Source: Chrysochromulina tobinii (taxonomy: Eukaryota; Haptophyta; Prymnesiales; Chrysochromulinaceae). From it: a stretch of 31,819 nt of DNA. Location of the stretch: positions 1 to 31,819 of the forward strand of contig JWZX01002395.1 of assembly GCA_001275005.1 (NCBI GenBank), given 5' to 3'. The position numbers and the translations under genes were made by a program. The stretch's first letter is position 1. Each line of letters begins with the position of its first letter. The notes beneath the pieces are model-generated. The model was not told the DNA's origin, searched no databases, and saw only the letters and a program-made list of their open reading frames with translations. Shown here in pieces: positions 696-21,975 of this stretch.

Positions 696-3600
696 ATGGC
701 GAAGCGTCTCTCTCTCGTGCTCGCCATCGGCCTCACGTCGCTCACGCTGCTCCGAGAATATTCGTCACTGTCGCGCGATCTCTCACCGGCCGCCACCGCC
801 GCAGCAGCAGTGACCTTGATTTCGACGCCCGAGTCCGATGCCTATGCGGCATCACTCTCCGCCGTCCTCGCAACGCACTCACTGCCACGGCGGCCACCCG
901 ACGGCCAGCAGCACGACGAACGGCTCTGGCAGCGCAGCGTGCCTGCCGCCGTGCCTGTCGATGCGCCGCCTGCTGCGCCCTGCGTGCCGCTCGATGCGGC
1001 TGCCGTGGGCGCCGCGAGCGCTTCCAACGAGCTCGGCGTCACGTTCGTCACCTTTGCCAACCACGCGCAGCTCGACTTTGCGCTCAACTGGTACGCGCAC
1101 CTGGCCGCGCTCCAGCTGGGGTCTTCGTCGCTCGTGGGTGCGACCGACACGCCGACGGAGCGTGGGCTTGCGGCTGCGGGCGTGCGCTGCTACCCACTAC
1201 GCTCGGCGCTGGGCGCCGCCGAAGCCAAGTGGGGAAGCGAGGGGTTCTCGCACATGGGACGCACCAAGGCACGGCTGCTACGCACGCTCCTCGAGCTCAA
1301 TGCGACGGTCCTCTTCGCGGACGCTGACGTCGTCTTCCTGCGCGACCCGCTGCCCTTCCTCCGGCGCCAGCTGCATGCGGGCGCCCAGCTCCTCTTCCAC
1401 ACGGACGGTTTCGGCTCGTCCGCGCGCGCGCTCGCGGCACAGCCCGAGGGCCTCGAGGACCCCTCCTTTGGTCTCACCCCCGAATTGAACACGGGCCTCT
1501 TTGTGGCCCTTCCGGCGGCGCGCAAGCTCGCGATCGCGTGGTGTGAAGCACTCGACGCCGATGGCGCCTTCTCTAACTGGAAGAACGACCAGCAGAGCCT
1601 CAACCAGCTCGTACGCCGAGGGCTGCGCACCCGCCCAGGCTCGGCGCTCATGGGTGCGTTCGACGGCACGCTCGAGCTCGGCTTGCTGCCCAACCATTTG
1701 TTCCCGTCGGGCCACGTCTTCTTTCTGCAGCGCGCGCTGCGCGGCGCGCACGCGCCGCCGTACGCCGTCCATCTGACCTTCCAGGCACGCGCCGCCCTAC
1801 GCCGTCCATCTGATTGCATGCCGTACGTCGCCCATCTGATTGCATGCTGATTGCATGCCGTACGCCGCCCATCTGATTGCATGCTGATTGCATGCTGATT
1901 GCATGCCGTACGCCGTCCATCTGACCCTCCAGAACTGCGATCAGTCGGGCAAGCGCCATCGGATGCGTGAGGCGGGCTTGTGGCTCCTCGACCCTCCCGA
2001 GCATTATGAGCCCGATGGCGGCCTGCTCTCGTACGAGCCCGACCTACCTGCCGAGCTCACGACGGCGCCTTCGCTCCTCTCGGGGCGTGCTTTCGCACCG
2101 CTTGAGCGCAACATGCGCGTGCCCGATCCGCTCCGAACACGATTGCGTCTCTGAGTGCATGCTGAGTGCATGCTGAGTGCGTCTCTGAGGACATGCTGAT
2201 TGCGTCCCTCATCAGGCGCGTGCCCGATCCGCTCCGAACTTGATTGCGTCTCTGATTGCATGCTGATTGCGTTCCTCATCAGGCGCGTGGCCGACCCGCT
2301 CGTGCATGCGCACTTCCGACTGATCAACCATCAGCTGCTGCAGGTGCGCACGGCGCTCGCATCTCGGAGTGCATGCTGATTGCGGCTGATTGCGCCCCTC
2401 ATCAGGCCCGTCAGCTGTGCGGCAGGTGCGCACGGCGCTCGCGCTCGCGCAAGTGCTCAACAGGACGCTCGTCCTCCCGCGCTTCCTCTGCGGCGTCGAG
2501 ACGGTGACGAACTTTGCGCACTTCCGACTGATTGCATGATGATTGCATGATGATTGCATGCTGATTGCATGCTGATTGCGTCCCTCATCAGGTGACGAAC
2601 TTTGCGCACTCGGGCGTCCGCTGTGTGGGCTCCAACGGCTGTGCGATGGCGCTGCCCTACTGGTGCCCGGCCGACCACGTGCTGCGCATGCATTACTTGA
2701 GAGGCGTGATGCCACAGACCCCTCAGCTACCGGTAGGTGATCGCGAGTTCTCGCTCTTTGCATGCAAGTGCCCATCACGGCGCCCTCACCTCCGCACAGG
2801 TACGTTATCGCGAGTTCTCGCTCTTTGCGAACGCGCAGGCGCGCCGAGCCGGGCGCGCGCTGCCCTGGGCGACCGCCCACCTGCCCGAGCAGACGGTTCT
2901 CATCAGCGTACCCGACGCACCCGTATGCCGCTGCGAGCCTTGCTGATGAGCCCTGATGAGCATGCCGCTGCGAGCCTTGCTGATGAGCCCTGATGAGCCC
3001 TGATGATGAGCCCTGATGAGCACTGATGAGCACTGATGAGCCCTGATGAGCTCTGATGAGCCCTGATGAGCCCTGATGAGCCCTGATGATGAGCCCAGAT
3101 GAGCACTGATGAGCCCTGATGAGCACGGATGAGCCCTGATGAGCACTGAGTGCAATCGAGAGACCAATGGAGATGCAATGGAGTGCCTCTGAGGACCTCT
3201 GATAGCTGTGCTCATCAGTGCTCATCAGTGCTCATCAGGACCTCTGATAGCTGTGCTCATCAGGTACGCCGATGCGAGCCCGCATGTGTGCCGTCCACCC
3301 CCGACACGTACGTGGGCTCCCGCCTCGAACGCCTTCGATCGAACCTCTGGGCGCTGCGGGCATGCAAGTGCTCATCACGGCGCCCTCACCTCCCCACATA
3401 GGTACGTGGGCTCCCGCTCGCTCGAGCCGACGCCACGCGCTCTGGGCGCGCGTGCTCGTGAGCGCCTCGAGCTACCGGCGACCGTTACGGACGAGGCCGC
3501 CCTGCGCGCCAAGCTGCAGCCCTATGCACAGCGCCGCCATCTGCACTTTGCCTCGCTCCGCCCCGAGGGGTTCAGTGTGCGCCTCTCGGCTGTGCGGAGG

Positions 3601-3867
3601 GGTCCATTCGACGAGACGATCCGCCATTTGGGTGGCGGCTTCTGCTGCGTCGAGGCGGAGCGGCGCGGCGGCTTCGGTCATTTTTGGTATGTGCTCTTCT
3701 TCTGTGCATGCTGGCCAGCTCGCCCCTCCGGGAGAGGGAATGCATGCTGATTGCGACCGATTGCGTCCCTCATCAGGTATGATCTCCTGTGGGACCAGCC
3801 GCACACTGATCGCTGGGGGCGTGTATGGACCGTTGAGAAGCCGTGGACGCCCACGCCTGGCCCGTGA
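696..3867 (+). CDS. GT77-family glycosyltransferase, XEG113-like arabinosyltransferase (9 exons)
   Basis: Proposed exons: 696-1784, 1933-2114, 2283-2343, 2426-2503, 2592-2732, 2800-2922, 3264-3307, 3402-3686, 3777-3867. They sum to 2094 nt, giving 697 aa in one frame. The N-terminus (AKRLSLVLAIGLTSLTLL) is a likely type II signal anchor, placing the enzyme in the Golgi lumen. Exon 1 carries the nucleotide-diphospho-sugar transferase domain: the metal-binding DxD is D209-A-D211 (FADADVVFLRDPL), followed by LNTGLFVALP and WKNDQQSLNQL. Later exons give YAVHLTFQ, GKRHRMREAGLW, HFRLINHQLLQVRTALALAQ, LNRTLVLPRF and ALPYWCPADHV, an order I know from plant XEG113, which arabinosylates hydroxyproline-rich proteins; its length is similar (about 640 aa). 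The exact acceptor is inferred. Introns 1 and 2 need GC-AG splicing. ATG 696 is the first in-frame ATG after a non-coding leader. The stop lies inside a 60-bp minisatellite. Confidence 0.85.
1785..1932 (+). repeat. GT77 intron 1: exon-end copies fused to TGATTGCATGC units
   Basis: The exon 1 tail (about 1758-1784, ending CTGACCTTCCAG) is copied almost exactly just before the acceptor (about 1906-1932, ending CTGACCCTCCAG). Between them are further partial copies of the same tail (about 1795, 1829 and 1857), each running into CTGATTGCATG units. CTGA is shared between the exon tail and the repeat, so the junctions have microhomology. The intron as modelled starts GC and ends AG. Confidence 0.7.
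2115..2591 (+). repeat. GT77 introns 2-4: downstream-exon copies plus family A 3' module
   Basis: Three introns (2115-2282, 2344-2425, 2504-2591) each begin with a copy of the start of the next exon: GCGCGTGCCCGATCCGCTC for exon 3 (diverged, and repeated again at 2216), GTGCGCACGGCGCTCGC for exon 4 (17 nt identical) and GTGACGAACTTTGCGCACT for exon 5 (19 nt identical). The copies are followed by TGATTGCATGC or GAGTGCATGC units. The module TGATTGCGTCCCTCATCAG, or a near match, ends at 2215, 2282, 2405 and 2591. Confidence 0.8.
2733..2799 (+). repeat. GT77 intron 5 with family B module
   Basis: This 67-nt intron begins with a diverged copy of the next exon's first ~28 nt (both contain ATCGCGAGTTCTCGCTCTTT), followed by CATGCAAGTGCCCATCACG, a pyrimidine-rich stretch and CACAG. 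The module matches those at 3361, 5847-5920 (minus strand), 11512 and 21252. Confidence 0.8.
2923..3263 (+). repeat. GT77 intron 6: CTGATGAGCC array with inverted GCTCATCAG tail
   Basis: The intron starts GTATGCCGCTGCGAGCC, a diverged copy of the next exon start GTACGCCGATGCGAGCC. From about 2940 to 3150 it is filled with CTGATGAGCC/CTGATGAGCA units, and near the acceptor (3208-3263) it carries GTGCTCATCA units, the reverse complement of the 5' units. It ends GTGCTCATCAG. The two halves could pair as a long imperfect hairpin. Confidence 0.8.
3308..3401 (+). repeat. GT77 intron 7 with family B module
   Basis: The intron starts GTACGTGGGCTCCCGC, identical to the first 16 nt of the next exon. 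It ends with CATGCAAGTGCTCATCACG, a pyrimidine-rich tract and CACATAG. The module is almost the same as in intron 5, although the flanking coding sequences are unrelated. Confidence 0.8.
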
Positions 3868-4047
3868 CCGTTACGTGACCGTTACGTGACCGTTGAGAAG
3901 CCGTGGACGCCCACGCCTGGCCCGTGACCGTTACGTGACCGTTCCGTGACCGTTGAGAAGCCGTGGACGCCCACGCCTGGCCCGTGACCGTTACGTGACC
4001 GTTCCGTGACCGTTGAGAAGCCGTGGACGCCCACGCCTGGCCCGTGA
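3829..4047 (+). repeat. 60-bp minisatellite over the GT77 stop codon, about 3.7 copies
   Basis: Units begin at about 3829, 3889, 3949 and 4009 (last partial). Each contains the bases coding for the last GT77 codons (VEKPWTPTPGP), its TGA, and two CCGTTACGTGA or CCGTTCCGTGA sub-units. The first copy is the real coding tail and the others lie downstream. Copies 2 and 3 share a single-base variant relative to copy 1, which shows recent expansion. Confidence 0.85.
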
Positions 4048-4890: not shown

Positions 4891-4900
4891 AGCTCTCAGA

Positions 4901-5126
4901 GCGGTCGGCAGGTGCATGCGATCGCCACGGCTGAGGTGATCAGATGATTGCTGCCCTCATCAGCTGAGCGGTCGGCAGGTGCAACGGTCGCCACGGCTGA
5001 GGTGATCAGCTGATTGCTGCCCTCATTAGCTGAGCGGTCGGCAGGTGCAACGGTCGCGACGGCTGAGGTGATCAGATGATTGCTGCCCTCATTAGCTGAG
5101 CGGTCGGCAGGTGCAACGGTCGCCAC
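4901..5126 (-). repeat. 66-bp minisatellite over the 3' end of the membrane coiled-coil gene
   Basis: Units recur at 4901, 4968, 5034 and 5100 (66-bp period, first copy diverged). On the minus strand each unit contains the coding tail of the 5092-7061 gene (CGACCGTTGCACCTGCCG) followed by a stop, then a segment ending CTGATCACCTCAG just before the next tail copy. That segment resembles the family A 3' splice module, so the downstream copies could act as alternative terminal exons. Confidence 0.75.
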
Positions 5127-7061
5127 GGTCGATCATCTGGTAGCCAGAGGGGCAGCTCTTGCCCACGCACGCGCCCGCGGACGCGGCGGCGGCGGCGGGA
5201 GGCGGCGGCGGCGGCGGCGACGAGGAAGCTGTGGAAGCTGTGGAAGCTGTGGAAGCTGTGGAAGCTGTGGAAGCTGTGGAAGCTGTGGAAGCTGTGGAAG
5301 CTGTGGAAGCTGTGGAAGCTGTGGAGGCCAGGACGGAGGCCAGGGCGGAGGCCAGGGCGCTCAACGGCTGCGTCGTGTTGTCCGCGGCTGCCACAGCGGC
5401 GCCCGGCACGGCGCTCCCAGCGGTCGCCTCCTCGGCCTCCGGCTGAGCTTCCACAGCGGGTGTAACGGCCGCCGGGAGCGCCGTGTCGGGCGCCGCGCCC
5501 GCTGTCGCCGACGCCGTCAACGGCGCCGTCGTCGCTGCCGCACTCGCCCCCTCTGCCCGCGCTTGCTGCAGCATCGCCCAGATGGCTTGCTGCAGCGGCA
5601 GAGCAGAGGCGCCCGACACGGCGCCCTCCGCGGTCGTCGGCACGGGCAGCGGCGGCGGCGGCGCAGGCGGCGGAGGTGTCAAGAGCTCTGCCACACGCTT
5701 CTCGAGAGCGCTCACGTTGACCTCGAGCGCGAGGCGCTTCGAACGCTCCTCCTCGTACGCGAGGCCAAGCGACGCGTTCCGCTCCGCCGCCGCCTTAAAC
5801 TCGTCGAGCACCAGGGCGCGCACCTGTGTGGGGAAGGGGGTGGGGCGCCGTGGTGAGCACTTGCATGCTGGGCGCTCGTCGAGCACCCGGGCGCGGGGCG
5901 CCGTGGTGAGCGCTTGCATGCTGGGCGCTCGTCAAGCACCCGGGCGCGCACCTCGGACAGCGAGTCCTGCCATCTGGCCGCCTCCTCCTTCTTCTCGTCA
6001 CTGGACCACGAAGACGACTTGCCCTCGGGCTGCTCGAAGCCCTTAGTCGCATCCTCGATGGCGAGGGTGGTCCGGTCCGCGAGCTCGTCGAAGAGCAGCG
6101 CCGCGCGCTCCTCCACCTTCGGCGACGTCTTCAGCAGCAAAGCCTTGAGCGCGGCGGCGCGCCGCGCGGTGCGCATCTTTTTGGTCGTCTCGAGCTCTAA
6201 CGCTTTCTTCTGCTTCTCCTGCCCCTCTTCCTGGCTGGCGAGCTGCGCGGCGAGGTCCTTGAGCAGCCTGGGCAGCGCGCCGCCGCCGTCGGGCGCGCCG
6301 CTCGTCCCCGCCGTCGCCTGCAGCACCGCCTTGGTCAACTGCTCGGTCGACGTTTTGTCGTAGTTGATGACGGCGGGCTGCAGCTGCAAGAGCTTCTTCT
6401 TGAGAGCCTCGTGCTCGGTCTGCTGGCGAGCGAGCGCGGCGCCCAGGTCGCGCACGAGCTGCGGCAGCGGCCCGCGCACCTCCGACGGCAGCGCCGCCGC
6501 CATCGCCGCCTGCTGCAGCTCCGCCACGGAGTTGCGATCGTACCGAGGGACGGTCACGCTGGAGGCGGCGGAGGCAGCGGCGGGCGCGGGGCCAGCGCCG
6601 GATGCCGCGGGAGTGCGGCGCGCCGCCGCGCCGAGCTGCTGCAGCCGCTCCTCACGCGCCGAAAGCGTCTCGCGCAGCTCGGAGAGCGTCGCCGACACCG
6701 TCTCATCGGATGCCGAGCTCTGCAGATCGCCGATGAGCTTGTCGGTCCAGCGGCGCTCGACCTCGTCGGTCTCGGCGCCTAGCAGCGAGCGCGACGGGCC
6801 GCTACTCAGACCCTGCGGCCGGCGCGGCGGAGGCAGCACCGCCGTCTGCCCAAAGTTGACACCAAAGAGGTAAGCGCCGAGGCAGAGCAGCGCTGTCCAC
6901 ACAAAGAGCACGCCAACGGAGGCGAGGGCGAGCTTGTTGCCGACGCCGATGGAAGCGAGGACCGGAGACGGCGGCGACCGCGGCCTCTTGGACTCGGACT
7001 CGATGTCGTGATCACCAGCGCGCGGAGCCTCCGGCGTCTGATGGACAGGGCGCCTCTCCAT
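5092..7061 (-). CDS. Type II membrane protein with coiled-coil and low-complexity tail (2 exons), function unknown
   Basis: Proposed exons 7061-5952 and 5823-5092 (1842 nt, 613 aa, phase-0 junction [12 protein letters not shown]). A hydrophilic N-terminus is followed by one membrane segment (about residues 44-70, [20 protein letters not shown]), so the protein is probably type II and lumenal. The body is rich in Ala/Gln/Glu/Lys with heptad-like stretches ([47 protein letters not shown]), suggesting coiled coil. Two similar units, about [14 protein letters not shown] and [15 protein letters not shown], each followed by LP.L..DL...LA, form an internal repeat. The tail holds poly-Pro, an (STA)n run from a 9-bp microsatellite, and a cysteine cluster ([20 protein letters not shown]). 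I recognise no family. The intron starts with a copy of the exon 2 start. Confidence 0.7.
5224..5322 (-). repeat. 9-bp coding microsatellite, 11 copies of GAAGCTGTG (plus strand)
   Basis: Eleven perfect tandem copies with period 9, so the frame is kept. On the minus strand they encode Ser-Thr-Ala repeats in the tail of the membrane coiled-coil protein. Perfect copies suggest length variation between alleles. Confidence 0.9.
5824..5951 (-). repeat. Intron of the membrane coiled-coil gene: exon copy plus two family B modules
   Basis: On the minus strand the intron starts GTGCGCGCCCGGGTGCTTG, matching the exon 2 start GTGCGCGCCCTGGTGCTCG at 22 of 24 positions including the following GACGAG. It then has two tandem copies of a ~50-bp segment containing the CATGCAAGTGCTCACCACG module (one with AAGCGCTC). 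It ends CCCCACACAG. Confidence 0.85.
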
Positions 7062-7082: not shown

Positions 7083-7199
7083 GCTGCTGCTGCTGCTGTG
7101 AAACACACACGCGCACAACCTCCGGACCCCCAAGCACGAGGGCCTCTATCGCTATGGACGGAGGTGCTGCTGCTGCTGTTCAACACAACGCGCAAACGC
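7083..7199 (+). repeat. CTG-rich ~75-bp minisatellite, left copy
   Basis: About one and a half units of a sequence containing (CTG)n, TTCAACACAACGCGC, CTCCGGACCCCCAAGCACG and CTATGGACGGAGGTG. It lies just upstream of the ATG at 7061 (minus). The segmental duplication starts inside it at 7164. The same unit is found at 15955-16185. Confidence 0.8.
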
Positions 7200-7282
7200 T
7201 CCGGACACGCGCGGGTAAAAATCTTTCGGGTTGACCTCGCCCTCTTCCCGTTTTCCCTCACGCTCGGCATGGGTGCCTACTA

Positions 7283-7859
7283 GGCGCCCCCATTCACAAT
7301 GAGAAAGGAGGGGCTGTTTGCCAGTGTTGCACAGCTCTGTCTTGTGGGTGACGAGTTTTTGACCATTTTCTGTGAAAATTGGTGAACTTCCGCAGCGGCC
7401 AAAGCCCAAAAGCCGTTTCGTACATAAAATCATAAATCACAAGGTTGCGGATCTTGGTGATCGAGGCCTTGCTCGCTTGCTACAAATCTACACGGCTCGA
7501 TCTTTCAATCAGTACCTCTACGGTGGGTAAGGAAAGCAGGACCAGATCACGAGATCAGGACACGACGCTACATGTTTTTAATGGAGCACGGAGGACAAGA
7601 ACACTTCATAACAGACATCTTGCCCCATTTGACATGCCCAGGATCCCAGGAAAGGAAAACACAGATCAATTCACAATTGAGAATAACAATAATTCTGAGA
7701 ATTGACAATTGAGTACATGTACGGGATCTGGGGAAGACTGTACGGGAAGCTTAACATGCAGATCGGGGATATGGAACTGAGTGTAAGCTCTCTCGAAATG
7801 GTTCTTGTGACAAAACGCTCGCGGCGACCCGTACTACGGTACACACTGCAAGCGACTTC
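7283..7859. other. AT-richer non-coding stretch, probable 3' flank of the ankyrin gene
   Basis: Visibly lower in GC than the rest of the window, especially 7660-7730 (ACAATTGAG and TTCTGAGAATTGACAATTGAG-like runs). The plus-strand frames here (7445-7705, 7702-8229) give unconvincing proteins, the second being largely antisense to the ankyrin gene. It lies downstream of the ankyrin stop at 7860, so 3' UTR or terminator is likely. Confidence 0.4.
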
Positions 7860-8921
7860 TCAGAGCTCATCCCCATGCTGCTCAGGCGCCATATGGAACG
7901 CGTGGAGTATCCTCTTCCTCATCCGTGCCCGCCTCTCCTCCGCCCGCTCCGGTCGCAACAACGTCGACCCTCTCGGAGACTCCTCATCCGTGCCTACGGG
8001 TTCCAAGGGTGGGATGCCGCTGGCCTCACTGTCAATGTCGGCGCCCTCCTCGACGAGGGCGACGACGCACTCAAAGCACTTGTATCGCACCGCGAGCTGC
8101 AGCGCCGTGGCGCCGTTGGAGGTGCCTTCGCCGTGGTGCGCCCGCATCTCGAGCTTCGCCCCCGCCCTGGCCAGCACGCGAATGATGGCGGGCTGCTCCT
8201 TGATGACGGCCAGGTGCAGCGGCGTGTAGCCGGTGAAGTCCTGCGCATTCAAGTCTGCGCCGACGGCCGACAGCGCGCGAACTGCGGATTGCTCGCCAGC
8301 ATTCACCGCCAGGTGCAACGCTGTGTGCACGGGGCCTATGATGGCCTGGAGGTCCGCACCCGCCTGTACCAAGGTCTTGATCGCGGTGGCAGATCTCCTC
8401 ATCTGCGCCGCCAGGTGCAACGGAGTGGCTCCATTGATGTCGCGTTGTTCGAGGGCATACCCGTAGCGACATAGGCAGGCGATCTTCTCAGCTCGGTGAG
8501 CGTCGTCCTTGTCCGATTGAACGGCGAGATGCAGCGGCGTCCGTCCGAACTTGTCACCACTGAGCAGGCTTACCGGCAAGGAAGCGCTCCCTGGCACGGC
8601 GACCTCCTCGGCAGAGAGGGTGGTCGCATAGCTCAGGAACCCTTCCAAGACGGCGGGCATGCCAGCGAGTGCGGCGTGATGGACAGGCGTTCGGCCGTCG
8701 CTGTCCTTGGATTCGAGCTGCTCCTTCAACTCGTGCGCCATGCGTTGCGCGCCCGCCATCATCTCGAGTCGTCTCTCGGCGTTCATCGGCACATCGGAGG
8801 TGTCGATCGACCGCGCGAGATCGCGAAGCGACCGTGGCTCTAGACCGTCCTCGTCGACCAGCGACGAGAGACCGGCAGCGATCGTCGCAAGGACGGCGGC
8901 GAAGAGCGAGTATGGAAACAT
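7860..8921 (-). CDS. Secreted or membrane-targeted ankyrin-repeat protein (intact copy)
   Basis: A single exon of 353 aa. The start MFPYSLFAAVLATIAAGLSS looks like a signal peptide. Six ankyrin units follow, with cores DGRTPVHHAALAG, FGRTPLHLAVQS, NGATPLHLAAQM, VHTALHLAVNAG, TGYTPLHLAVIKE and NGATALQLAVRYK, roughly from residue 70 to 300. The second unit has an insertion. The C-terminus is charged (ERAEERRARMRKR). Ankyrin repeats mediate protein binding; no enzyme domain is attached and the partner is unknown. The gene is divergent from HADHA, with 170 bp between ATGs. A second copy at 16841-17903 is frameshifted, so this is the functional one if only one is. Confidence 0.85.
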   Translation of the reverse strand: MFPYSLFAAVLATIAAGLSSLVDEDGLEPRSLRDLARSIDTSDVPMNAERRLEMMAGAQRMAHELKEQLESKDSDGRTPVHHAALAGMPAVLEGFLSYATTLSAEEVAVPGSASLPVSLLSGDKFGRTPLHLAVQSDKDDAHRAEKIACLCRYGYALEQRDINGATPLHLAAQMRRSATAIKTLVQAGADLQAIIGPVHTALHLAVNAGEQSAVRALSAVGADLNAQDFTGYTPLHLAVIKEQPAIIRVLARAGAKLEMRAHHGEGTSNGATALQLAVRYKCFECVVALVEEGADIDSEASGIPPLEPVGTDEESPRGSTLLRPERAEERRARMRKRILHAFHMAPEQHGDEL

Positions 8922-9091
8922 GCCGCCAGGAACCGGTAAAAAGACGCCAGGAACCGGTAAACTTCGTGTTCATAGGACAACTCGTGCTGGGGTTTTGTAG
9001 TTTTTTTCGCTGGTTCACACCTGGTTCACACTTCTGATTGCGGACTCCTCGGGGTACTTTGTGCCTTGATTGCATCAGAGCGTAGGCTTTC
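8922..9091. promoter_or_regulatory. Divergent spacer between ankyrin and HADHA genes with short direct repeats
   Basis: 170 bp holding two copies of GCCAGGAACCGGTAAA (8925-8940, 8946-8961), a TTTTTTT run (about 9001-9007) and a doubled CTGGTTCACA (about 9010-9030). The 14-mer ACCGGTAAAAAGAC at 8932 also occurs upstream of the membrane-protein gene, at 27838. A bidirectional promoter role is inferred from position. Confidence 0.4.
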
Positions 9092-12000
9092 ATGCTCGGC
9101 CTTCGTCGCGGGGCCTCCGCCCTGGTGCTCCAGCACGTCCGCAACAAGCACGTGACGGTGAGTGGCCCACCCTCTCGTCGCATCGTCGCACGCTCCGAGC
9201 GGCGTGCGTGCGCGCGAAGCCGCCCTGCTCCCTGGTGGCCCGTCCCGGCGGAGCGGGAGACCAACGCCTTGCCGCCTTCTCTCCCGCAGGTGAATGTGAC
9301 TTCCAAGGGAGTGGCCGTGGTCAAGATGGACGTGATCGGCGCCAAGCAGAACACGCTCAGCGAGGAGTTCAATGTCGACATCGAGGCGATGATCAAGAAG
9401 ATGGAGGCGGACAGCTCCGTCAAGGCTGTCGTTGTCATGTCGGGCAAGCCGGGCTCGTGGATCGCGGGCGCGGACATCAAGATGATCGAGGCGTGCGAGT
9501 CGGTGGAGGAGGCGGTGGGCAAGTCGGCGCAGGGCCAGAAGATCATGGATCAGGTCGCGGCCATGCAGAAGAAGAAGCCGTGGATCGCGGCGATCGACGG
9601 CGCGTGCCTGGGCGGCGGCCTTGAGACGGCCATGGCGATGTCGATGCGCATCGCGACGTCGTCGTCGAAGACGCAGCTGGGCGTGCCCGAGGTGATGCTC
9701 GGCCTGCTGCCGGGCGCGGGTGGCACCCAGCGCCTGCCCAAGATCGTCGGCGCCGCCAACGCGCTCGACCTGATGCTCACGGGCAAGATGCTCAAGGCAG
9801 AGAAGGCGAAGAAGATGGGCCTCGTCGACCTCGTGGTCGACCCGTCGGCGCTGGAGCGGACGGCGATCGCGGTGGCGGAGGAGATGATCGCCGGCACGTA
9901 CAAGCCGAAGAAGCGCACGCTGGGCTGGATGGACTGGTTCCTCGAGCAGACGAGCGTCGGGCGCAATCTGATGTTCAAACAGGTATGTGCTCGCTGGGAC
10001 GACGCTGCCTCTGATTGCCTCTGATTGCCTCTGATTGCATCTAATTACCGTTGATTGCATGCAGGTGCGTGCTGGCTGGGACGACGCCGCCTCTGATTGC
10101 AACTAGTTGCATCTGATTGCATCTGATTGCATCTGATGTTCAAACAGGCGACAGAGAAGGTCCAGAAGCAGACCAAGGGCAAGTACCCGGCGCCGCTCGC
10201 GATCCTCGAGTGCGCGAAGACGGGGCTGGCCGAGGGCCACGAGGCGGGCTCCAAGAAGGAGGCGCAGCTCTTCGGCGAGCTCTCGCAGACGACGGAGAGC
10301 GGCGCCCTCCGCGGCCTCTTCTATGGGCAGGTGAGATGGCCTCTGATTGCCTCTGATGACGTCTGATTGCCTCTGATTGCCTCTGATTGCCTCTGATGGC
10401 CCTCCGCGGCCTCTTCTATGGGCAGGTGAGATGGCCTCTGAATGCCTCAGATTGCCTCTGATGGCGTCCGATGGCCTTGATGGCGTCTGATGGCCTCTGA
10501 TGACGGCTGATGGCCTCTGATGGCCTCTGATGACGGCTAATGACGTCTGATGACGGCTGATGACGTCTGATGGCGGCTGATCGCGGCTGATGACGGCTGA
10601 TGACGGCTAATGACGGCTGATTGCGGCTGATGACGGCTGATGACGGCTGGTGACGGCTGATGACGGCTGGTGACGGCTGATGACGGCTGATGACGGCTAA
10701 TGACGGCTAATGACGGCTGATGACGTCCGATGGCCTCTCCTGTGTCCAGACCGAGTGCAAGAAGAACAAGTACGGCAAGCCGGCGGTGTCGGTCGAGACG
10801 ATTGGCATCCTTGGAGCTGGCCTGATGGGCGCGGGCATCGCGCAGGCGTCGGCGAGCAAGGGGTTCCGTGTGCTGCTCAAGGACCGTGATGACGTGGGCC
10901 TGGGTAAGGGTGAGGCGTACATCAAGGTGAGAAAGCTGATGACCTCTGATGACCTCGGATGACCTCTGATTGCCTCTGATGACGTCCCTCATCAAGGTGA
11001 GAGAGCTCTCAAGCTGATGACCTCTGATGACCTCTGATGACTTCTGAGTGCCTCTGATGACCTCTGATGACCTCTGATTGCAATCAGAGCTGATGACCTC
11101 GGATGACCTCGGATGGACCTCTGATGACCTCTGATGGCCTTTGATGACCACTGGGTGCCTGCCCCTGATCCGCCCCTGATTGCCCCTGCCTGTCGCCCAT
11201 TGCCGTCGATGTGGCCACTGCTTGCAGGGCAACCTGGGCAAGAAGCTCCAGAAGAAGAAGATGACGATGTTCGACCATGACTCGACCCTCGCGCGGGTGG
11301 TCGGGTTGACGGACTCGATCCCTTCATGGACACGTCACTACGGCCAGGCGGACCTTGTCATCGAGGCCGTGCCCGAGGTGAGGGGCAGCGCTGATGACCT
11401 CTGATGACCTCTGATGACCTCTGATGACCTCTGATGACCTCTGATGACCTCTGATGACCTCTGATGACCTCTGATGACCTCTGATGAGGGGCAGCGACTC
11501 CTCCTGCCTGCCTGCAAGCCAGTGCTCACTACGGCGCCTCGCCTCTCCCCTCTCTCAGGTGCTCTCGCTCAAGCACAAGGTGGTCGCGCAGATGGAGGAG
11601 ATCGTGCCCAAGCACTGCATCATTGCGACGAACACGTCGACGCTCCCCATCGCCCACATCGCGCAGCACGCGAAGCGCCCCGAGAACATTGTGGGCATGC
11701 ACTACTTTTCGCCGGCCGAGGTGATGCAGCTGCTCGAGGTCATCCCTCACGCGAAGACGTCGGACGCCGTGTGCGCCGCCGCCGTCGACGTGGGCATCCG
11801 ACAAGGCAAGACGGTCATCTCCGTCAAGGACGTGCCTGGTGCGGATGCTTCTTCTCATGCATGCATACTTGCCACCCTAATTGCTCCCTACTTGCCTTCC
11901 CAACTGCCTAGCTAATTGCCACTCTGATTGCCACCCTAATTGCCACCCTAATCGCCACCCTCATCGCCACCCTGATTGCCTCCCTAATTGCCTTTCTCAT

Positions 12001-13024
12001 TGCCTCCCTACTTGATTGCCTCCCTCATCAGGCTTCTACGTCAACCGTTGCATTGGGCCGATGTCGACCGAGGCCCTCGCTGTCGTGCAGCAGGGCTGCG
12101 ACCCCATCAAGCTCAATCAGGCCATGCTCGACTTCGGGTACCCTGTCGGTCCCATCACGCTGCTTGACGAGGTGGGCATCGACGTGACGACCCACGTGGT
12201 CAACCACCTGATTGCCTCTGATGACACCACTCATGGCCTCTGATGACGCCGCTCATTGCACAGGTGGGCATCGACGTGACGACCCACGTGGTCAACAACC
12301 TCATCGGCGACCCCGCGAAAGGGTACCTCGGCGTGCGCATGGAGGGCGCGGACCTCAAGATCATGGACGACTTCGTGGCGGCTGGCCTACTGGGCAAGAA
12401 GACGGGCAAGGGCTTCTTCGACCACTCGGACAAGAAGGCCAAGGTGAGTGCCCCTGAGTGTCCCTGATTGCCCCCTGATTGCGTCCGATGTGCGATGGCA
12501 TCCTCCGATGGGATGATCTCCGATGGCATCCTCCGATGATCTCATCGCCTCTGAGTGCATCTCTTCGGATTGCCCCCCTCATCAGGTGAAGGCGATCCAC
12601 CCCGATGGGATCCTGATTGCCCCTGATTGCCCCTGATGGCCCCCCTCATCAGGTGAAGGCGATCCACCCCGAGGCGGCAAAGCTCATCAAGAAGTACCAG
12701 CACCCGACCAAGCGCATCGACCCGGCGACGCCGATTGAGGCCATCGTGGAGCGCGTCGTGCTGCGCTTCGTCATCGAGGCCATCCACTGCCTGCAGGATG
12801 GCATCATCGCCTCGGCGCGCGACGGCGACATCGGCGCCGTCTTCGGCGTCGGCTTCCCGCCCTTCCGCGGCGGCCCCTTCATGTGGCTCGACACGGTCGG
12901 CCCGAAGGTGATCGTCGAGAAGCTCAAGAAGCTCGAGGCGGAGCATGGCCCCCAGTTCGCTCCTCCCAAACTTCTTTTGGACAAGGCGGCCAAAGGCGAG
13001 CTCTTCCACAACGCCAAGCCCTAA
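9092..13024 (+). CDS. HADHA: Mitochondrial trifunctional enzyme alpha subunit (enoyl-CoA hydratase / 3-hydroxyacyl-CoA dehydrogenase), 9 exons
   Basis: Exons: 9092-9157, 9290-9982, 10148-10330, 10750-10926, 11228-11377, 11559-11838, 12032-12171, 12264-12443, 12653-13024. They total 2241 nt, giving 746 aa (human HADHA is 763). The leader MLGLRRGASALVLQHVRNKH is Arg-rich and mitochondrial in type. The hydratase domain has GACLGGGLE (Glu134) and GVPEVMLGLLPGAGGTQR (Glu156), with the 22-residue spacing of the catalytic pair in human HADHA. The dehydrogenase domain has the NAD loop GAGLMG (336-341), His471 (MHYFSP) and Glu483 (LLEVI), again with family spacing, then the C-terminal 3HCDH helices (FYVNRCIGPMSTEA, FGVGFPPFRGGPF). 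It hydrates and oxidises long-chain enoyl-CoA in mitochondrial beta-oxidation. No beta (thiolase) subunit is in the window. Most introns are filled with 10-bp repeats. Confidence 0.95.
9983..10147 (+). repeat. HADHA intron 2: exon-end copy and tandem duplication
   Basis: The exon tail CTGATGTTCAAACAG (ending at 9982) is repeated as the last bases of the intron (ending at 10147). Inside, a segment GCTGGGACGACGC followed by CTCTGATTGC units occurs twice, and an internal GCAGGTGCG offers a cryptic acceptor. The same structure is present at 18965-19129. Confidence 0.8.
10331..10749 (+). repeat. HADHA intron 3: 10-bp TGATGACGGC / CTGATTGCCT array with second donor copy
   Basis: This 419-nt intron is made almost wholly of 10-bp units. 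The last ~30 nt of exon 3 plus the donor (CTTCTATGGGCAG|GTGAGAT) are copied inside the intron, giving a second potential donor at 10426. Units then change to TGATGACGGC and its TAATGACGGC variant. It ends CCTGTGTCCAG. Confidence 0.85.
10927..11227 (+). repeat. HADHA intron 4: CTGATGACCT units with internal donor copy
   Basis: The exon end ATCAAGGTGAGA recurs inside the intron (about 10991). The rest is CTGATGACCT-type units, plus an 18-bp perfect palindrome CTCTGATTGCAATCAGAG at about 11074. It ends CCACTGCTTGCAG. Confidence 0.8.
11391..11480 (+). repeat. Nine tandem copies of CTGATGACCT in HADHA intron 5 (11378-11558)
   Basis: Nine perfect 10-bp units, flanked on both sides by TGAGGGGCAGCG. 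They are followed by a family B module (about 11512-11535, CCAGTGCTCACTACGGCGCC) and a long pyrimidine tract to CAG. The segmental duplication ends just after this array. Confidence 0.9.
11839..12652 (+). repeat. HADHA introns 6-8: repeat-filled with 33-nt exon duplication
   Basis: Intron 6 (11839-12031) is made of CTAATTGCC and CTGATTGCC units and ends TGCCTCCCTCATCAG. Intron 7 (12172-12263) begins with 33 nt identical to the start of exon 8 (GTGGGCATCGACGTGACG and on). Intron 8 (12444-12652) contains an early copy of the exon 9 start (GTGAAGGCGATCCACCCCGA, at 12586) behind its own CCCCCCTCATCAG acceptor, then a second acceptor at 12652 before the true exon. Confidence 0.85.
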
Positions 13025-15856: not shown

Positions 15857-16185
15857 TAGAAGTGTCACCTGTCTCACATGCACCACGCGCGGCACCTCGG
15901 GTGGGGGTACATACCGCACCCGCGGCACCCCTTGCGCCCGTGCCGCAAGCACGGTGCTGCTGCTGCTGCTGTTCAACACAACGCGCGCGCGCGCGCACAC
16001 TCTCCGGACCCCCAAGCACGAGGGCCACTGTCGCTATGGACGGAGGTGTGGCTGCTGCTGCTGTTCAACACAACGCGCACCTCTCCGGACCCCCAAGCAC
16101 GAGAGCCACTATCACTATGGACGGAGGTGTGGCCGACACAGCCCGTGCTGCTGCTGCTGTTCAACACAACGCGCAAACGCTCCGG
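15857..16185 (+). repeat. CTG-rich ~75-bp minisatellite, right copy (three units from 15955)
   Basis: After ~100 bp of non-coding sequence, three units start at about 15955, 16050 and 16145. Each holds (CTG)n, TTCAACACAACGCGC, and in the first two CTCCGGACCCCCAAGCACG with TATGGACGGAGGTGT. The third runs into segmental-duplication copy B. It has more units than the matching place at 7083-7199. Confidence 0.85.
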
Positions 16186-19100
16186 ACACGCGCGGGTAAA
16201 AATCTTTCGGGTTGACCTCGCCCTCTTCCCGTTTTCCCTCACGCTCGGCATGGGTGCCTACTAGGCGCCCCCATTCACAATGAGAAAGGAGGGGCTGTTT
16301 GCCAGTGTTGCACAGCTCTGTCTTGTGGGTGACGAGTTTTTGACCATTTTCTGTGAAAATTGGTGAACTTCCGCAGCGGCCAAAGCCCAAAAGCCGTTTC
16401 GTACATAAAATCATAAATCACAAGGTTGCGGATCTTGGTGATCGAGGCCTTGCTCGCTTGCTACAAATCTACACGGCTCGATCTTTCAATCAGTACCTCT
16501 ACGGTGGGTAAGGAAAGCAGGACCAGATCACGAGATCAGGACACGACGCTACATGTTTTTAATGGAGCACGGAGGACAAGAACACTTCATAACAGACATC
16601 TTGCCCCATTTGACATGCCCAGGATCCCAGGAAAGGAAAACACAGATCAATTCACAATTGAGAATAACAATAATTCTGAGAATTGACAATTGAGTACATG
16701 TACGGGATCTGGGGAAGACTGTACGGGAAGCTTAACATGCAGATCGGGGATATGGAACTGAGTGTAAGCTCTCTCGAAATGGTTCTTGTGACAAAACGCT
16801 CGCGGCGACCCGTACTACGGTACACACTGCAAGCGACTTCTCAGAGCTCATCCCCATGCTGCTCAGGCGCCATATGGAACGCGTGGAGTATCCTCTTCCT
16901 CATCCGTGCCCGCCTCTCCTCCGCCCGCTCCGGTCGCAACAACGTCGACCCTCTCGGAGACTCCTCATCCGTGCCTACGGGTTCCAAGGGTGGGATGCCG
17001 CTGGCCTCACTGTCAATGTCGGCGCCCTCCTCGACGAGGGCGACGACGCACTCAAAGCACTTGTATCGCACCGCGAGCTGCAGCGCCGTGGCGCCGTTGG
17101 AGGTGCCTTCGCCGTGGTGCGCCCGCATCTCGAGCTTCGCCCCCGCCCTGGCCAGCACGCGAATGATGGCGGGCTGCTCCTTGATGACGGCCAGGTGCAG
17201 CGGCGTGTAGACCGGTGAAGTCCTGCGCATTCAAGTCTGCGCCGACGGCCGACAGCGCGCGAACTGCGGATTGCTCGCCAGCATTCACCGCCAGGTGCAA
17301 CGCTGTGTGCACGGGGCCTATGATGGCCTGGAGGTCCGCACCCGCCTGTACCAAGGTCTTGATCGCGGTGGCAGATCTCCTCATCTGCGCCGCCAGGTGC
17401 AACGGAGTGGCTCCATTGATGTCGCGTTGTTCGAGGGCATACCCGTAGCGACATAGGCAGGCGATCTTCTCAGCTCGGTGAGCGTCGTCCTTGTCCGATT
17501 GAACGGCGAGATGCAGCGGCGTCCGTCCGAACTTGTCACCACTGAGCAGGCTTACCGGCAAGGAAGCGCTCCCTGGCACGGCGACCTCCTCGGCAGAGAG
17601 GGTGGTCGCATAGCTCAGGAACCCTTCCAAGACGGCGGGCATGCCAGCGAGTGCGGCGTGATGGACAGGCGTTCGGCCGTCGCTGTCCTTGGATTCGAGC
17701 TGCTCCTTCAACTCGTGCGCCATGCGTTGCGCGCCCGCCATCATCTCGAGTCGTCTCTCGGCGTTCATCGGCACATCGGAGGTGTCGATCGACCGCGCGA
17801 GATCGCGAAGCGACCGTGGCTCTAGACCGTCCTCGTCGACCAGCGACGAGAGACCGGCAGCGATCGTCGCAAGGACGGCGGCGAAGAGCGAGTATGGAAA
17901 CATGCCGCCAGGAACCGGTAAAAAGACGCCAGGAACCGGTAAACTTCGTGTTCATAGGACAACTCGTGCTGGGGTTTTGTAGTTTTTTTCGCTGGTTCAC
18001 ACCTGGTTCACACTTCTGATTGCGGACTCCTCGGGGTACTTTGTGCCTTGATTGCATCAGAGCGTAGGCTTTCATGCTCGGCCTTCGTCGCGGGGCCTCC
18101 GCCCTGGTGCTCCAGCACGTCCGCAACAAGCACGTGACGGTGAGTGGCCCACCCTCTCGTCGCATCGTCGCACGCTCCGAGCGGCGTGCGTGCGCGCGAA
18201 GCCGCCCTGCTCCCTGGTGGCCCGTCCCGGCGGAGCGGGAGACCAACGCCTTGCCGCCTTCTCTCCCGCAGGTGAATGTGACTTCCAAGGGAGTGGCCGT
18301 GGTCAAGATGGACGTGATCGGCGCCAAGCAGAACACGCTCAGCGAGGAGTTCAATGTCGACATCGAGGCGATGATCAAGAAGATGGAGGCGGACAGCTCC
18401 GTCAAGGCTGTCGTTGTCATGTCGGGCAAGCCGGGCTCGTGGATCGCGGGCGCGGACATCAAGATGATCGAGGCGTGCGAGTCGGTGGAGGAGGCGGTGG
18501 GCAAGTCGGCGCAGGGCCAGAAGATCATGGATCAGGTCGCGGCCATGCAGAAGAAGAAGCCGTGGATCGCGGCGATCGACGGCGCGTGCCTGGGCGGCGG
18601 CCTTGAGACGGCCATGGCGATGTCGATGCGCATCGCGACGTCGTCGTCGAAGACGCAGCTGGGCGTGCCCGAGGTGATGCTCGGCCTGCTGCCGGGCGCG
18701 GGTGGCACCCAGCGCCTGCCCAAGATCGTCGGCGCCGCCAACGCGCTCGACCTGATGCTCACGGGCAAGATGCTCAAGGCAGAGAAGGCGAAGAAGATGG
18801 GCCTCGTCGACCTCGTGGTCGACCCGTCGGCGCTGGAGCGGACGGCGATCGCGGTGGCGGAGGAGATGATCGCCGGCACGTACAAGCCGAAGAAGCGCAC
18901 GCTGGGCTGGATGGACTGGTTCCTCGAGCAGACGAGCGTCGGGCGCAATCTGATGTTCAAACAGGTATGTGCTCGCTGGGACGACGCTGCCTCTGATTGC
19001 CTCTGATTGCCTCTGATTGCATCTAATTACCGTTGATTGCATGCAGGTGCGTGCTGGCTGGGACGACGCCGCCTCTGATTGCAACTAGTTGCATCTGATT

Positions 19101-20468
19101 GCATCTGATTGCATCTGATGTTCAAACAGGCGACAGAGAAGGTCCAGAAGCAGACCAAGGGCAAGTACCCGGCGCCGCTCGCGATCCTCGAGTGCGCGAA
19201 GACGGGGCTGGCCGAGGGCCACGAGGCGGGCTCCAAGAAGGAGGCGCAGCTCTTCGGCGAGCTCTCGCAGACGACGGAGAGCGGCGCCCTCCGCGGCCTC
19301 TTCTATGGGCAGGTGAGATGGCCTCTGATTGCCTCTGATGACGTCTGATTGCCTCTGATTGCCTCTGATTGCCTCTGATGGCCCTCCGCGGCCTCTTCTA
19401 TGGGCAGGTGAGATGGCCTCTGAATGCCTCAGATTGCCTCTGATGGCGTCCGATGGCCTTGATGGCGTCTGATGGCCTCTGATGACGGCTGATGGCCTCT
19501 GATGGCCTCTGATGACGGCTAATGACGTCTGATGACGGCTGATGACGTCTGATGGCGGCTGATCGCGGCTGATGACGGCTGATGACGGCTAATGACGGCT
19601 GATTGCGGCTGATGACGGCTGATGACGGCTGGTGACGGCTGATGACGGCTGGTGACGGCTGATGACGGCTGATGACGGCTAATGACGGCTAATGACGGCT
19701 GATGACGTCCGATGGCCTCTCCTGTGTCCAGACCGAGTGCAAGAAGAACAAGTACGGCAAGCCGGCGGTGTCGGTCGAGACGATTGGCATCCTTGGAGCT
19801 GGCCTGATGGGCGCGGGCATCGCGCAGGCGTCGGCGAGCAAGGGGTTCCGTGTGCTGCTCAAGGACCGTGATGACGTGGGCCTGGGTAAGGGTGAGGCGT
19901 ACATCAAGGTGAGAAAGCTGATGACCTCTGATGACCTCGGATGACCTCTGATTGCCTCTGATGACGTCCCTCATCAAGGTGAGAGAGCTCTCAAGCTGAT
20001 GACCTCTGATGACCTCTGATGACTTCTGAGTGCCTCTGATGACCTCTGATGACCTCTGATTGCAATCAGAGCTGATGACCTCGGATGACCTCGGATGGAC
20101 CTCTGATGACCTCTGATGGCCTTTGATGACCACTGGGTGCCTGCCCCTGATCCGCCCCTGATTGCCCCTGCCTGTCGCCCATTGCCGTCGATGTGGCCAC
20201 TGCTTGCAGGGCAACCTGGGCAAGAAGCTCCAGAAGAAGAAGATGACGATGTTCGACCATGACTCGACCCTCGCGCGGGTGGTCGGGTTGACGGACTCGA
20301 TCCCTTCATGGACACGTCACTACGGCCAGGCGGACCTTGTCATCGAGGCCGTGCCCGAGGTGAGGGGCAGCGCTGATGACCTCTGATGACCTCTGATGAC
20401 CTCTGATGACCTCTGATGACCTCTGATGACCTCTGATGACCTCTGATGACCTCTGATGACCTCTGATG
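16145..20468 (+). repeat. Segmental duplication, copy B (4324 bp)
   Basis: A copy of 7164-11486, with offset 8981 before and 8982 after the extra A at 17211. It carries the broken ankyrin gene and HADHA exons 1-5, including all intron repeats with the same unit numbers (nine CTGATGACCT units at 20373-20462). After 20468 the sequence is unrelated to copy A. Confidence 0.95.
16841..17903 (-). pseudogene. Ankyrin-repeat gene, duplicated copy with frameshift
   Basis: Identical to the gene at 7860-8921 except for one extra A at 17211 (GTGTAGACCGG against GTGTAGCCGG). The insertion falls in DFTG|Y at the start of the fifth ankyrin unit. The frame then reads about 56 unrelated residues to a stop at 17052, giving 283 aa instead of 353 and losing units 5 and 6 and the charged tail. 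The signal peptide and four ankyrin units remain, so a truncated product is possible. A sequencing error must be considered, since it is the only difference seen in 4.3 kb. Confidence 0.75.
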
Positions 20469-21975
20469 GCTCCTGCAGGCGGACGTGCTCGAGAAGCTCA
20501 AGGAGTTCATCTGCGGGTACAAGCCACAGTTGATGAGGTGGTACGAGCAGCATGACCCGAACGGCACCGGGGTCATCTCCCTGGGAGTGACCGTGCAGGG
20601 CCTTAGGGACGTGGTGCAGGGCGTGATGCCTTGGGAGGACTATATGAGCAGCCTCGCAACCATCGAACCGGACGAGACGGTGCTGTACCGCTCCTTCCTC
20701 GGACGGTACCGCATTGCGTCGGCGCAGCAGGGCTGGCAGACGCGCATGCTCTCCTCCCTGATGGAGTCGATCTCGTCACTCTCGCTGCACGATACTCTTG
20801 AGGTCTTCGACCCGAACCACGACGGCGTCGTCTCCTTCGACGAGCTCCGCACAGTTCTCTCGAGGTTCGCCATCGGACTCTCCTACGAGTCCATCGACGC
20901 GCTCACGAAGCAGCTGCTCGGCGGCAAGGAGTCGTTACGCACCGCCGAGCTGCTTGAGCTCCTCGACGTGCAGTACACCGAGAGCGGTAAAGATGGAGAG
21001 CCGCCGCGCACGCCGCCCGCTTGGGCCGCCCCTCTTCTCGAGGCCGTTGCCAAGCAGTGCGCCGTGCGCCAAGCTGACTCGATTGAGCTGTTCCAGCAAT
21101 TTGACGGCGACGGCGACGGTTACATCTCGGCCGCCGAGTTCCAGCAGGCGATGCTCAAGCTGGGCGCCCATGACGGCGCTCCGGGCACTCCCGAACAGCA
21201 CGATCGGGTGAGCTCGATGCTACTCGATCTCGCGCGAGCTGGACCTGCCTTGCATGCCAGTGCTCACCACAGCGCCGTGCGTGTTCCTCAGGTGAGCTCG
21301 ATGCTCCTCGACCTTGCGAGCTGGCTCGACAAGGACGGCGACGGCAAGATTGCGTATCTCGAGTTCATCAACGCGTTCAAGGTGGGCGCGAAAAGCACGG
21401 GTACTGGCGACGCCGCCGAGCCTGCGTCGGAGGCCAGCCGGGAGCGCACGAGCGCCATCTCGAGCGCCATCGTGCATGCGGCTGGGGGTGCCATCGAGGA
21501 GCTCCTCGAGCACCTGTGCGCCCTCTTCTACCGGCATCGCTGGTCCCTCAAGCATGCCTTCGAGTACTTTGATGCCAACGGCGACGGCGTACTCTCGCCG
21601 GAAGAGTTCGCGACGGCGCTCAAGGCGCTCTCCACGATGTCGCTGGACGACGAGGAGGGGATCGGCAGGAGCGCCAAGGCGGGCGAGGACCACAAAGAGG
21701 CACTGCGCCTCACCGACGATCAGGCTGACCGGCTCGTCGCGTCCCTCGATCGGAATTCGGACGGCGTGATTGACTATGACGAATTCCTCTCGGCTCTGCA
21801 GGCGAGTGCCTTTGAGTGCCACTGAAGACCTCTGATGACCTCTCTCTGATGACCTCTGATGACCTCTGATGACCTCTGATGACCTCTGATGACCTCTGAT
21901 GACCTCTGATGACCTCTGATGACCTCTGATGAGCTCCTCACGGCTCTGCAGGCGAGGGACACGGCGCAGATGTGA
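18074..21975 (+). CDS. Chimeric gene: HADHA N-terminal half (enoyl-CoA hydratase) fused in frame to a PPEF-like EF-hand region
   Basis: Exons 1-5 (18074-18139, 18272-18964, 19130-19312, 19732-19908, 20210-20359) equal those of HADHA. Then 20479-21207, 21292-21801 and 21952-21975 follow: 2532 nt, 843 aa, phase 0 at the fusion (AVPE|ADVLEKLKEF). The leader and whole hydratase domain (Glu134, Glu156) are kept. The dehydrogenase is cut at residue 423, so the GAGLMG loop remains but His471 and Glu483 are lost. The C-terminal half has five canonical EF-hand loops (about 534-545, 632-643, 679-690, 760-771, 819-830) and a degenerate one (HDPNGTGVISLG). The stretch ISL...MPWEDY...YRSFLGRY followed by EF-hands resembles the C-terminus of PPEF/RdgC phosphatases; no phosphatase domain is present. 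The last intron is GC-AG; without it the protein would stop at 21825. Expression is unproven. Confidence 0.7.
21208..21291 (+). repeat. 84-nt in-frame intron in the EF-hand region with family B module
   Basis: It starts GTGAGCTCGATGCTACTCG, copying the next exon start GTGAGCTCGATGCTCCTCG, then has CATGCCAGTGCTCACCACAG and a pyrimidine-rich end with CAG. Its length is a multiple of three and it has no stop, so retention would add 28 residues just before the third EF-hand. Confidence 0.75.
21802..21951 (+). repeat. Last intron of the chimeric gene: CTGATGACCT array between exon-end copies
   Basis: The exon tail CGGCTCTGCAG|GCGAG occurs at 21791-21806 and again at 21941-21956, with about nine CTGATGACCT units between. 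Splicing joins LSALQ to ARDTAQM and a TGA at 21973. The donor is GC. The array is the same family as the duplication breakpoint array at 20373-20462. Confidence 0.7.

Follow-up and report, generated by a model that had tools for sequence, protein, structure and literature searches.

The origin of introns has long been an open question, and most lineages offer only few recent cases with good support. Introners are one described source, for which target duplications of 3-9 bp are reported in 49 of 130 families and terminal inverted repeats in 72 of 177 families (PMC9860276, available part). Here we describe putative introns of the haptophyte Chrysochromulina tobinii in which copies of the adjoining exon flank inserts with recurrent acceptor modules. 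The window, i.e. the whole stretch of DNA analyzed, is the contig JWZX01002395.1 with 31,819 nucleotides and 62% GC, one of 2253 contigs of a 53.15 Mb genome. It contains a gene for a GT77-type glycosyltransferase and a gene for the trifunctional enzyme alpha (HADHA). The basic layout consists of a copied exon stretch (D), an insert ending at AG, and D again. We give a probability of roughly 0.5 to the reading that the D-insert-D stretches are spliceosomal introns which arose through templated insertion from nearby sequence via short-homology template switching.

Parts of this anatomy are already known, namely the donor taken from a target duplication (introners) and the duplicated intron end combined with an exon-derived donor (potato). 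The introners of Symbiodinium are likewise many similar introns with a donor from the duplicated target, an acceptor borne by the insert and an unchanged mRNA, but their duplication measures 4 bp (PMC9860276). In C. tobinii, D is variable with 12-38 nt, and the inserts sort by gene, have local templates in part and show no inverted ends by eye. Introners from a Chrysochromulina metagenome, an alga that is perhaps related, also duplicate their target and recruit one splice site. However, they do so with 4 bp, carry the 5' splice site and recruit the 3' one (PMC9860276), which corresponds to the minority mirror form found here. In the potato RdRp gene, a tandem duplication over an intron/exon boundary likewise combined an exon-derived donor with the duplicated 3' part of the parental intron; it is a single case beside its parent with an inserted exon (PMC4974935), whereas many sites are affected here, mostly with no adjoining parent. 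New introns of Daphnia share the direct repeats of exon ends and the internal repeats, but the former are only 4-12 bp long (PMC4202315), and recurrent acceptor modules are the difference here. Direct repeats of 4-30 bp at or near the borders were also described for 213 introns of many kinds and taken as insertion marks; a recurrent module, a local template or a gene-wise spread is not described in the available part of that source (PMC11782384). In the literature as far as our searches covered it, no description was found of recurrent acceptor modules that are flanked by long duplications of variable length and have local templates of the same family. New here are the clustering of modules by gene, strand and family and the local sense sharing of insert words.

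Exon copies in the introns of the GT77 and HADHA genes

The two genes and their introns with exon copies or modules are given below. Module A is the 19-nt sequence TGATTGCGTCCCTCATCAG, and module B is a second acceptor module with a recurrent core of ~40 nt at many sites.

696..3867, plus strand: GT77-type glycosyltransferase gene, nine exons, 697 aa, frame continuous over all eight junctions
696-1784, 1933-2114, 2283-2343, 2426-2503, 2592-2732, 2800-2922, 3264-3307, 3402-3686, 3777-3867, plus strand: exons of the GT77 gene
1785..1932, plus strand: GT77 intron 1, GC donor, exon end 1757-1784 copied at 1905-1932
2115..2282, plus strand: GT77 intron 2, GC donor, exon start 2283-2301 copied at 2115-2133 and 2216-2234
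2344..2425, plus strand: GT77 intron 3, 17-nt exact exon-start copy (2344-2360 = 2426-2442)
2504..2591, plus strand: GT77 intron 4, 19-nt exact exon-start copy (2504-2522 = 2592-2610)
2515..2532, plus strand: patch within GT77 intron 4, TGCGCACTTCCGACTGAT, identical to coding exon 3 at 2307-2324
2733..2799, plus strand: GT77 intron 5, family B, 29-nt exon-start copy (2733-2761 / 2800-2828, 2 mismatches), module B at 2762-2799
2923..3263, plus strand: GT77 intron 6, 17-nt diverged copy (2923-2939 / 3264-3280), CTGATGAGCC repeats, ends GTGCTCATCAG
3308..3401, plus strand: GT77 intron 7, family B, 16-nt copy (3308-3323 = 3402-3417), module B up to 3401
3687..3776, plus strand: GT77 intron 8, GTATG common to intron and exon start, module A with 1 mismatch at 3758-3776
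9092..13024, plus strand: HADHA gene, nine exons, 746 aa
9983..10147, plus strand: HADHA intron 2, intron end copies exon end (17/20 nt), donor from the insert
10331..10749, plus strand: HADHA intron 3, exon end 10304-10330 copied internally at 10399-10425, followed by the same donor
12172..12263, plus strand: HADHA intron 7, 33-nt exon-start copy (12172-12204 = 12264-12296; 20/20), ends CATTGCACAG
12444..12652, plus strand: HADHA intron 8, inner unit with a 20-nt copy (12586-12605 = 12653-12672), ends CCCCTCATCAG

The GT77 gene was assigned by its domain (PF03407, E 3.8e-28). Seven of its eight introns carry a copy of an adjoining exon, six of them of the downstream exon start and one of the upstream exon end. 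Borders were scored as matches in 20 nt between intron edge and exon edge, with mismatched intron/exon pairs as control. Against the start of the next exon, introns 1 to 8 reach 5, 17, 17, 19, 18, 15, 16 and 10 matches, compared to a mean of 7.2 and a maximum of 13 for mismatched pairs. The initial annotation, made from the sequence alone, had described introns 2, 3, 4 and 6 as starting like the next exon, and this was found to be correct (exact over 17 nt in intron 3 and 19 nt in intron 4, diverged in 2 and 6), as was the GTATG shared by intron 8. Its statement that introns 2, 4 and 8 end in one module also holds, exactly in intron 4 (2573-2591) and with one mismatch in the other two. In intron 2 the mismatched module forms the intron end (2264-2282), and an exact inner copy lies at 2197-2215. 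The proposed division of labour, with the donor from the duplicated exon and the acceptor and branch region from the repeated 3' module, is likewise supported. The annotation had not included the module B introns 5 and 7, the use of GC as donor in introns 1 and 2, or the exon-end copies in GT77 intron 1 and HADHA introns 2 and 3.

Intron 1 represents the mirror form. Its exon-end copy agrees in 19 of 20 nt, as part of a 28-nt repeat with a lag of 148, and the acceptor is supplied by the duplicated exon. In intron 3 the duplication extends into the end of the upstream exon, so that the AG comes from the copy; this is a real exception to the rule that D starts at the AG. By reading, introns 1 and 3 fit in part the tandem genomic duplication of AGGT, in which the duplicated exon segment supplies donor and acceptor alike (PMC3443670). 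Introns 2, 4, 5, 6 and 7 do not, as their AG lies in the insert, which is also the situation in most cases here. Transposition by reverse splicing leaves no exon duplication, while exon copies flank the inserts of C. tobinii. The patch in intron 4 bridges D and the repeats; it overlaps D by 8 nt and continues with 10 bases of exon 3. At the end of the gene, the last codons and the stop region are part of a 60-bp tandem repeat (3828-4047, 3.7 copies, 99% alike).

The HADHA gene model aligns with the trifunctional enzyme alpha 5zqz (E 7.6e-193), and near the eight junctions the gaps never exceed one residue. Mismatched intron/exon pairs reach at most 9/20 in this gene. The end of intron 3 also resembles the exon end (14/20 nt), and the five introns other than 2, 3 and 7 have little or no border signal above mismatched pairs. 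For intron 7, the initial annotation had claimed the same construction as in GT77: the 33-nt copy is present, but the intron does not end in the module.

Intron gain with duplication of the target, as had been suggested, is supported in GT77 by duplications above the level of mismatched pairs and by intronless paralogs. In a search with the GT77 protein, 16 other contigs (30-45% identical) gave a single match free of stops that spans intron positions 1-4 (aa 363-470). The best paralog, an intronless frame of 710 aa on contig C506, aligns over residues 65-697 and so extends beyond each of the eight positions, with positions 5-7 (aa 517-573) in a poorly conserved part of the alignment. Because these sequences run unbroken across the intron positions, the GT77 introns look gained; intron loss by retroposition in all paralogs is possible but less simple. 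The paralogs are old, and they therefore show gain in GT77 and not its date. Part of the gains may be recent, as many D copies are still nearly identical. A DNA search with the unspliced window, which was swamped by repeats, yielded no second GT77 copy among the 39 scored of 2085 candidates.

Acceptor modules and exon copies across the genome

Module A occurs in 154 exact copies in the genome, and its reversed sequence in none. Strict patterns gave 792 matches for module A followed by GT and 493 for module B, each with 0 matches for the reversed control. Counted as putative introns, these matches are many similar introns at unrelated genome sites, as is characteristic for introners; the introner duplication of 3-9 bp, a typical rather than strictly defining feature, was not found here. 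Copies of the following sequence were counted in sampled stretches of 242 kb, which were mostly picked for module content and are a biased sample. With a score of at least 12, an upstream copy was present at 64 of 128 CCTCATCAG sites (downstream control 22) and at 26 of 75 YCCCACAG sites (downstream control 4). The control of family A is probably inflated by tandem units. The idea of one single cassette does not hold: acceptor modules are of two kinds at least, A and B, there is a mirror geometry in which the exon end is copied, and the inserts are not uniform. Inserts of family A are variable repeats, and in some of these introns CTGATGAG and CTCATCAG are complementary. In module B no inverted ends were seen by eye, and no statistical test was applied to this.

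Altogether 99 cases of the D-insert-D layout were catalogued, 72 of family A (start GT in 41, GC in 6, other in 25) and 27 of family B (GT in 24, other in 3). A clean set, limited to GT or GC starts, D up to 44 nt and a position not directly behind another A module, contains 53 cases at 25 loci. D measures 12-38 nt with a mean identity of 0.962 and is identical in 21 of the 53; the median intron is 83 nt long. Tandem units inside introns occur at the loci L032 and L044 and in GT77 intron 2. At L025 (1137-1190), a D-insert unit of 54 nt, a multiple of three, starts with AT and may be translated rather than spliced.

The position at which the second copy begins was determined for 139 acceptors with a nearby repeat. 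In 64 it lies outside -6 to +12, many of these being read as tandem units. Among the other 75, 54 edges fall at -6 to 0, 50 of them at -3 to 0, and the remaining 21, read singly, mostly reflect indels or changes in D or nested units. These positions agree with what is expected if D starts at the AG, with upstream run-on by chance or by a shared G. The donors of 71 GT or GC cases have G at -1 in 56, R at +3 in 65 and G at +5 in 44, which fits canonical U1. The U1 locus carries the canonical 5' end, which speaks against an altered U1, considered since donors often read GTRCG.

Chaperonin genes served as a small sample chosen without regard to modules. In a search for them, 8 matches covered nearly the whole family in one exon. 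Three contigs with split matches were read (C1728, C1710, C1550; C2008, C273 and C2068 were left out), and the four introns seen there by eye were one ordinary intron, one D-insert-D unit, one with an internal exon-end copy and one with repeats only.

Clustering, local origin and possible routes of intron gain

Modules cluster by gene, strand and family. Among the first 100 matches listed for each family, 62 A and 43 B have another member of their family on the same strand no more than 2 kb away, where chance predicts ~3% and ~2%. Without neighbours within 200 bp, 50 and 37 remain, and on the opposite strand there are 0 within 2 kb in both families. With B taken from contigs up to C319, where the A list ends, A modules with a B within 2 kb number 7 on the same strand and 2 on the opposite strand (16 and 4 within 5 kb).

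Part of the inserts look copied from introns of the same gene, and in one clear case also from an exon. Locus-private 12-mers, present in no other sampled locus, recur within 3 kb of the insert in sense for 24 of 75 inserts and in antisense for 2 of 75; some of the 24 are tandem units. A match of at least 14 nt across the junction of D and insert was found at the own locus in 12 of 73 cases, 4 of them tandem-type by reading, compared to 0.55% of 1460 controls. The clearest candidates for local origin are GT77 intron 4 with its exon 3 patch, L020 and L022. At L020, two introns 1.2 kb apart have a stretch of 52 nt in common which overlaps D by 3-5 nt. At L022, a homology of 45 nt (2 mismatches) overlaps D by 5-6 nt and extends 7 nt past the AG. 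With pairs alike over at least 15 nt excluded, at least 5 nt past the AG are common to 6 of 31 same-gene pairs with a private 13-mer, to 17 of 439 non-sharing same-gene pairs and to 435 of 13,394 pairs from different loci. The expected signs of template switching, short homology at the switches and a local template, are clear in single pairs and modest statistically.

In the proposed mechanism, copying of a gene would leave its template after exon stretch D and switch by short homology to a sequence close by. In the usual case this would be the 3' portion of an intron already present in that gene, with branch point, pyrimidines and AG. After the intron piece has been copied, a return to the start of D would give the product exon-D-insert-D-exon. 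The first D, beginning with G|GTRNG, would supply the donor and the insert the branch point and acceptor, and splicing, which frames and homology predict at these junctions, would restore the original mRNA. A fresh intron could template the next and introns would spread within the gene. It is conceivable, at somewhat less than even chances, that introns in this way breed introns without a mobile element, the target being chosen by homology to the AG|GTR junction of the source, each copy being spliceable at birth and the count growing gene by gene.

Compared with introner-type or RNA-based insertion, template switching on DNA has about even odds. It is unlikely that the inserts are non-autonomous transposons of the introner type, which would bring the 3' splice site, take the donor from an unusually long target duplication and cluster by insertion preference. 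The recurrent core of module B would suit such elements, as would the donor recruitment known for introners and their report from a Chrysochromulina metagenome genome (PMC9860276). The length and variability of D stand against the 3-9 bp given in the same source, and further points against a transposon are that no inverted ends were seen by eye in module B, the variable repeats of family A, the exon patch, the shared locus-private inserts and the sorting of A and B by gene. Retro-insertion of intron RNA, in which nick-primed reverse transcription would copy an excised intron from its 3' end, truncate it at the 5' side and duplicate the target, was favoured at first because of the sharp edge at the AG. 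It would also agree with the variable duplication length, some short overlaps at the 5' junction, the sense orientation and the proximity to like introns. The edge could be the end of an RNA, or it could mark the point where copying returned through homology around AG|GTR. Neither the exon 3 patch of GT77 intron 4 nor the homology past the AG into the source exon (4 non-nested pairs) can stem from an excised intron, and because of these two observations this route was lowered to quite unlikely, even if a pre-mRNA could still be the template. Both observations modestly favour switching on DNA, during replication or repair.

That old introns were remodelled, with their 5' part overwritten by copies of the next exon and no intron gained, is improbable. 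Remodelling does happen, as the tandem units at L032, L044 and in GT77 intron 2 show, but the 16 contigs unbroken at the first four GT77 positions and the best paralog with one open frame throughout speak against it. Least probable are staggered double-strand breaks filled by end joining with fillers of no particular origin, as proposed for Daphnia, where direct repeats of exon ends flank the new introns (PMC4202315). The repeats given there are 4-12 bp long, and in C. tobinii the fillers are recurrent acceptor modules, in part with a match to a template nearby. This process is a neighbour of template switching, not its opposite.

Several results weigh against template switching as the source of these introns. 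The borders of the GT77 and HADHA introns rest on frame and homology, not on RNA, and the open-frame test did not discriminate (spliced 44/61, unspliced 24/61, frame-shifted controls 93/122). A start with neither GT nor GC was seen in 25/72 cases of family A and 3/27 of family B. Among the matches listed, 4/100 A have an A on the opposite strand within 5 kb. A private local word is absent in 51/75 inserts, and the restriction to sense is to some extent inevitable, because a piece of intron inserted in antisense could not be spliced. Insert words overlap clearly within genes only if they are long (5, 46 and 206 of 2000 permutations reach the observed value for k=10, 8 and 6). Homology past the AG is only suggestive: 2 of the 6 pairs come from nested sites, and at L020 the outer pair has no nucleotide in common past the AG. 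In a looser screen most overlaps with D were negative, so that most pairs are without homology at that switch point.

Several hundred introns probably keep a readable record of their birth, consisting of the duplicated target, the insert and sometimes the template; this estimate follows from the module counts and the copies at about half of the A and a third of the B sites. With such a record, sequence comparison would be able to tell DNA switching, RNA insertion and transposition apart. A further prediction is that the genes now rich in introns are the ones that at some time acquired a first intron.

Other features of the window and the genome

Two further stretches of the window resemble family B introns.

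21208..21291, plus strand: intron-like stretch within the gene that follows the second HADHA copy downstream, 27-nt exon-start copy (21208-21234 / 21292-21318, 3 mismatches)
5824..5951, minus strand: intron-like stretch, 24-nt exon-start copy

A tandem unit of 66 bp (4899-5128, 3.5 copies), outside the GT77 and HADHA models, ends with the module-A-like sequence CCCTCATCAG or CCCTCATTAG. An Rfam scan of the window gave no match.

A stretch of 4.3 kb is present twice (7164-11486 and 16145-20468) with 0 mismatches and one 1-base gap. It holds an ankyrin-like gene on the minus strand, named by eye, and the first exons of HADHA. The second copy breaks in the CTGATGACCT array of HADHA intron 5 and enters a gene which by eye is EF-hand-like; this junction would be due either to misassembly at the array or to a fusion of very recent date. 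Contigs C101 and C235 and the two HADHA copies of the window are 99.98% identical with 0 mismatches and thus represent assembly redundancy or very recent copies; they are useless for comparing intron presence and absence. Between the stretches taken from contigs C1099 and C1205 for a haplotype comparison, no alignment was obtained.

Telomere-like AGGGTT repeats form an internal array at 30322-30450. A genome search with PF00504 gave 58 light-harvesting matches. For one light-harvesting protein, the closest PDB entries were the LHCI chains of 9vfj, followed mostly by fucoxanthin or chlorophyll a/c proteins.

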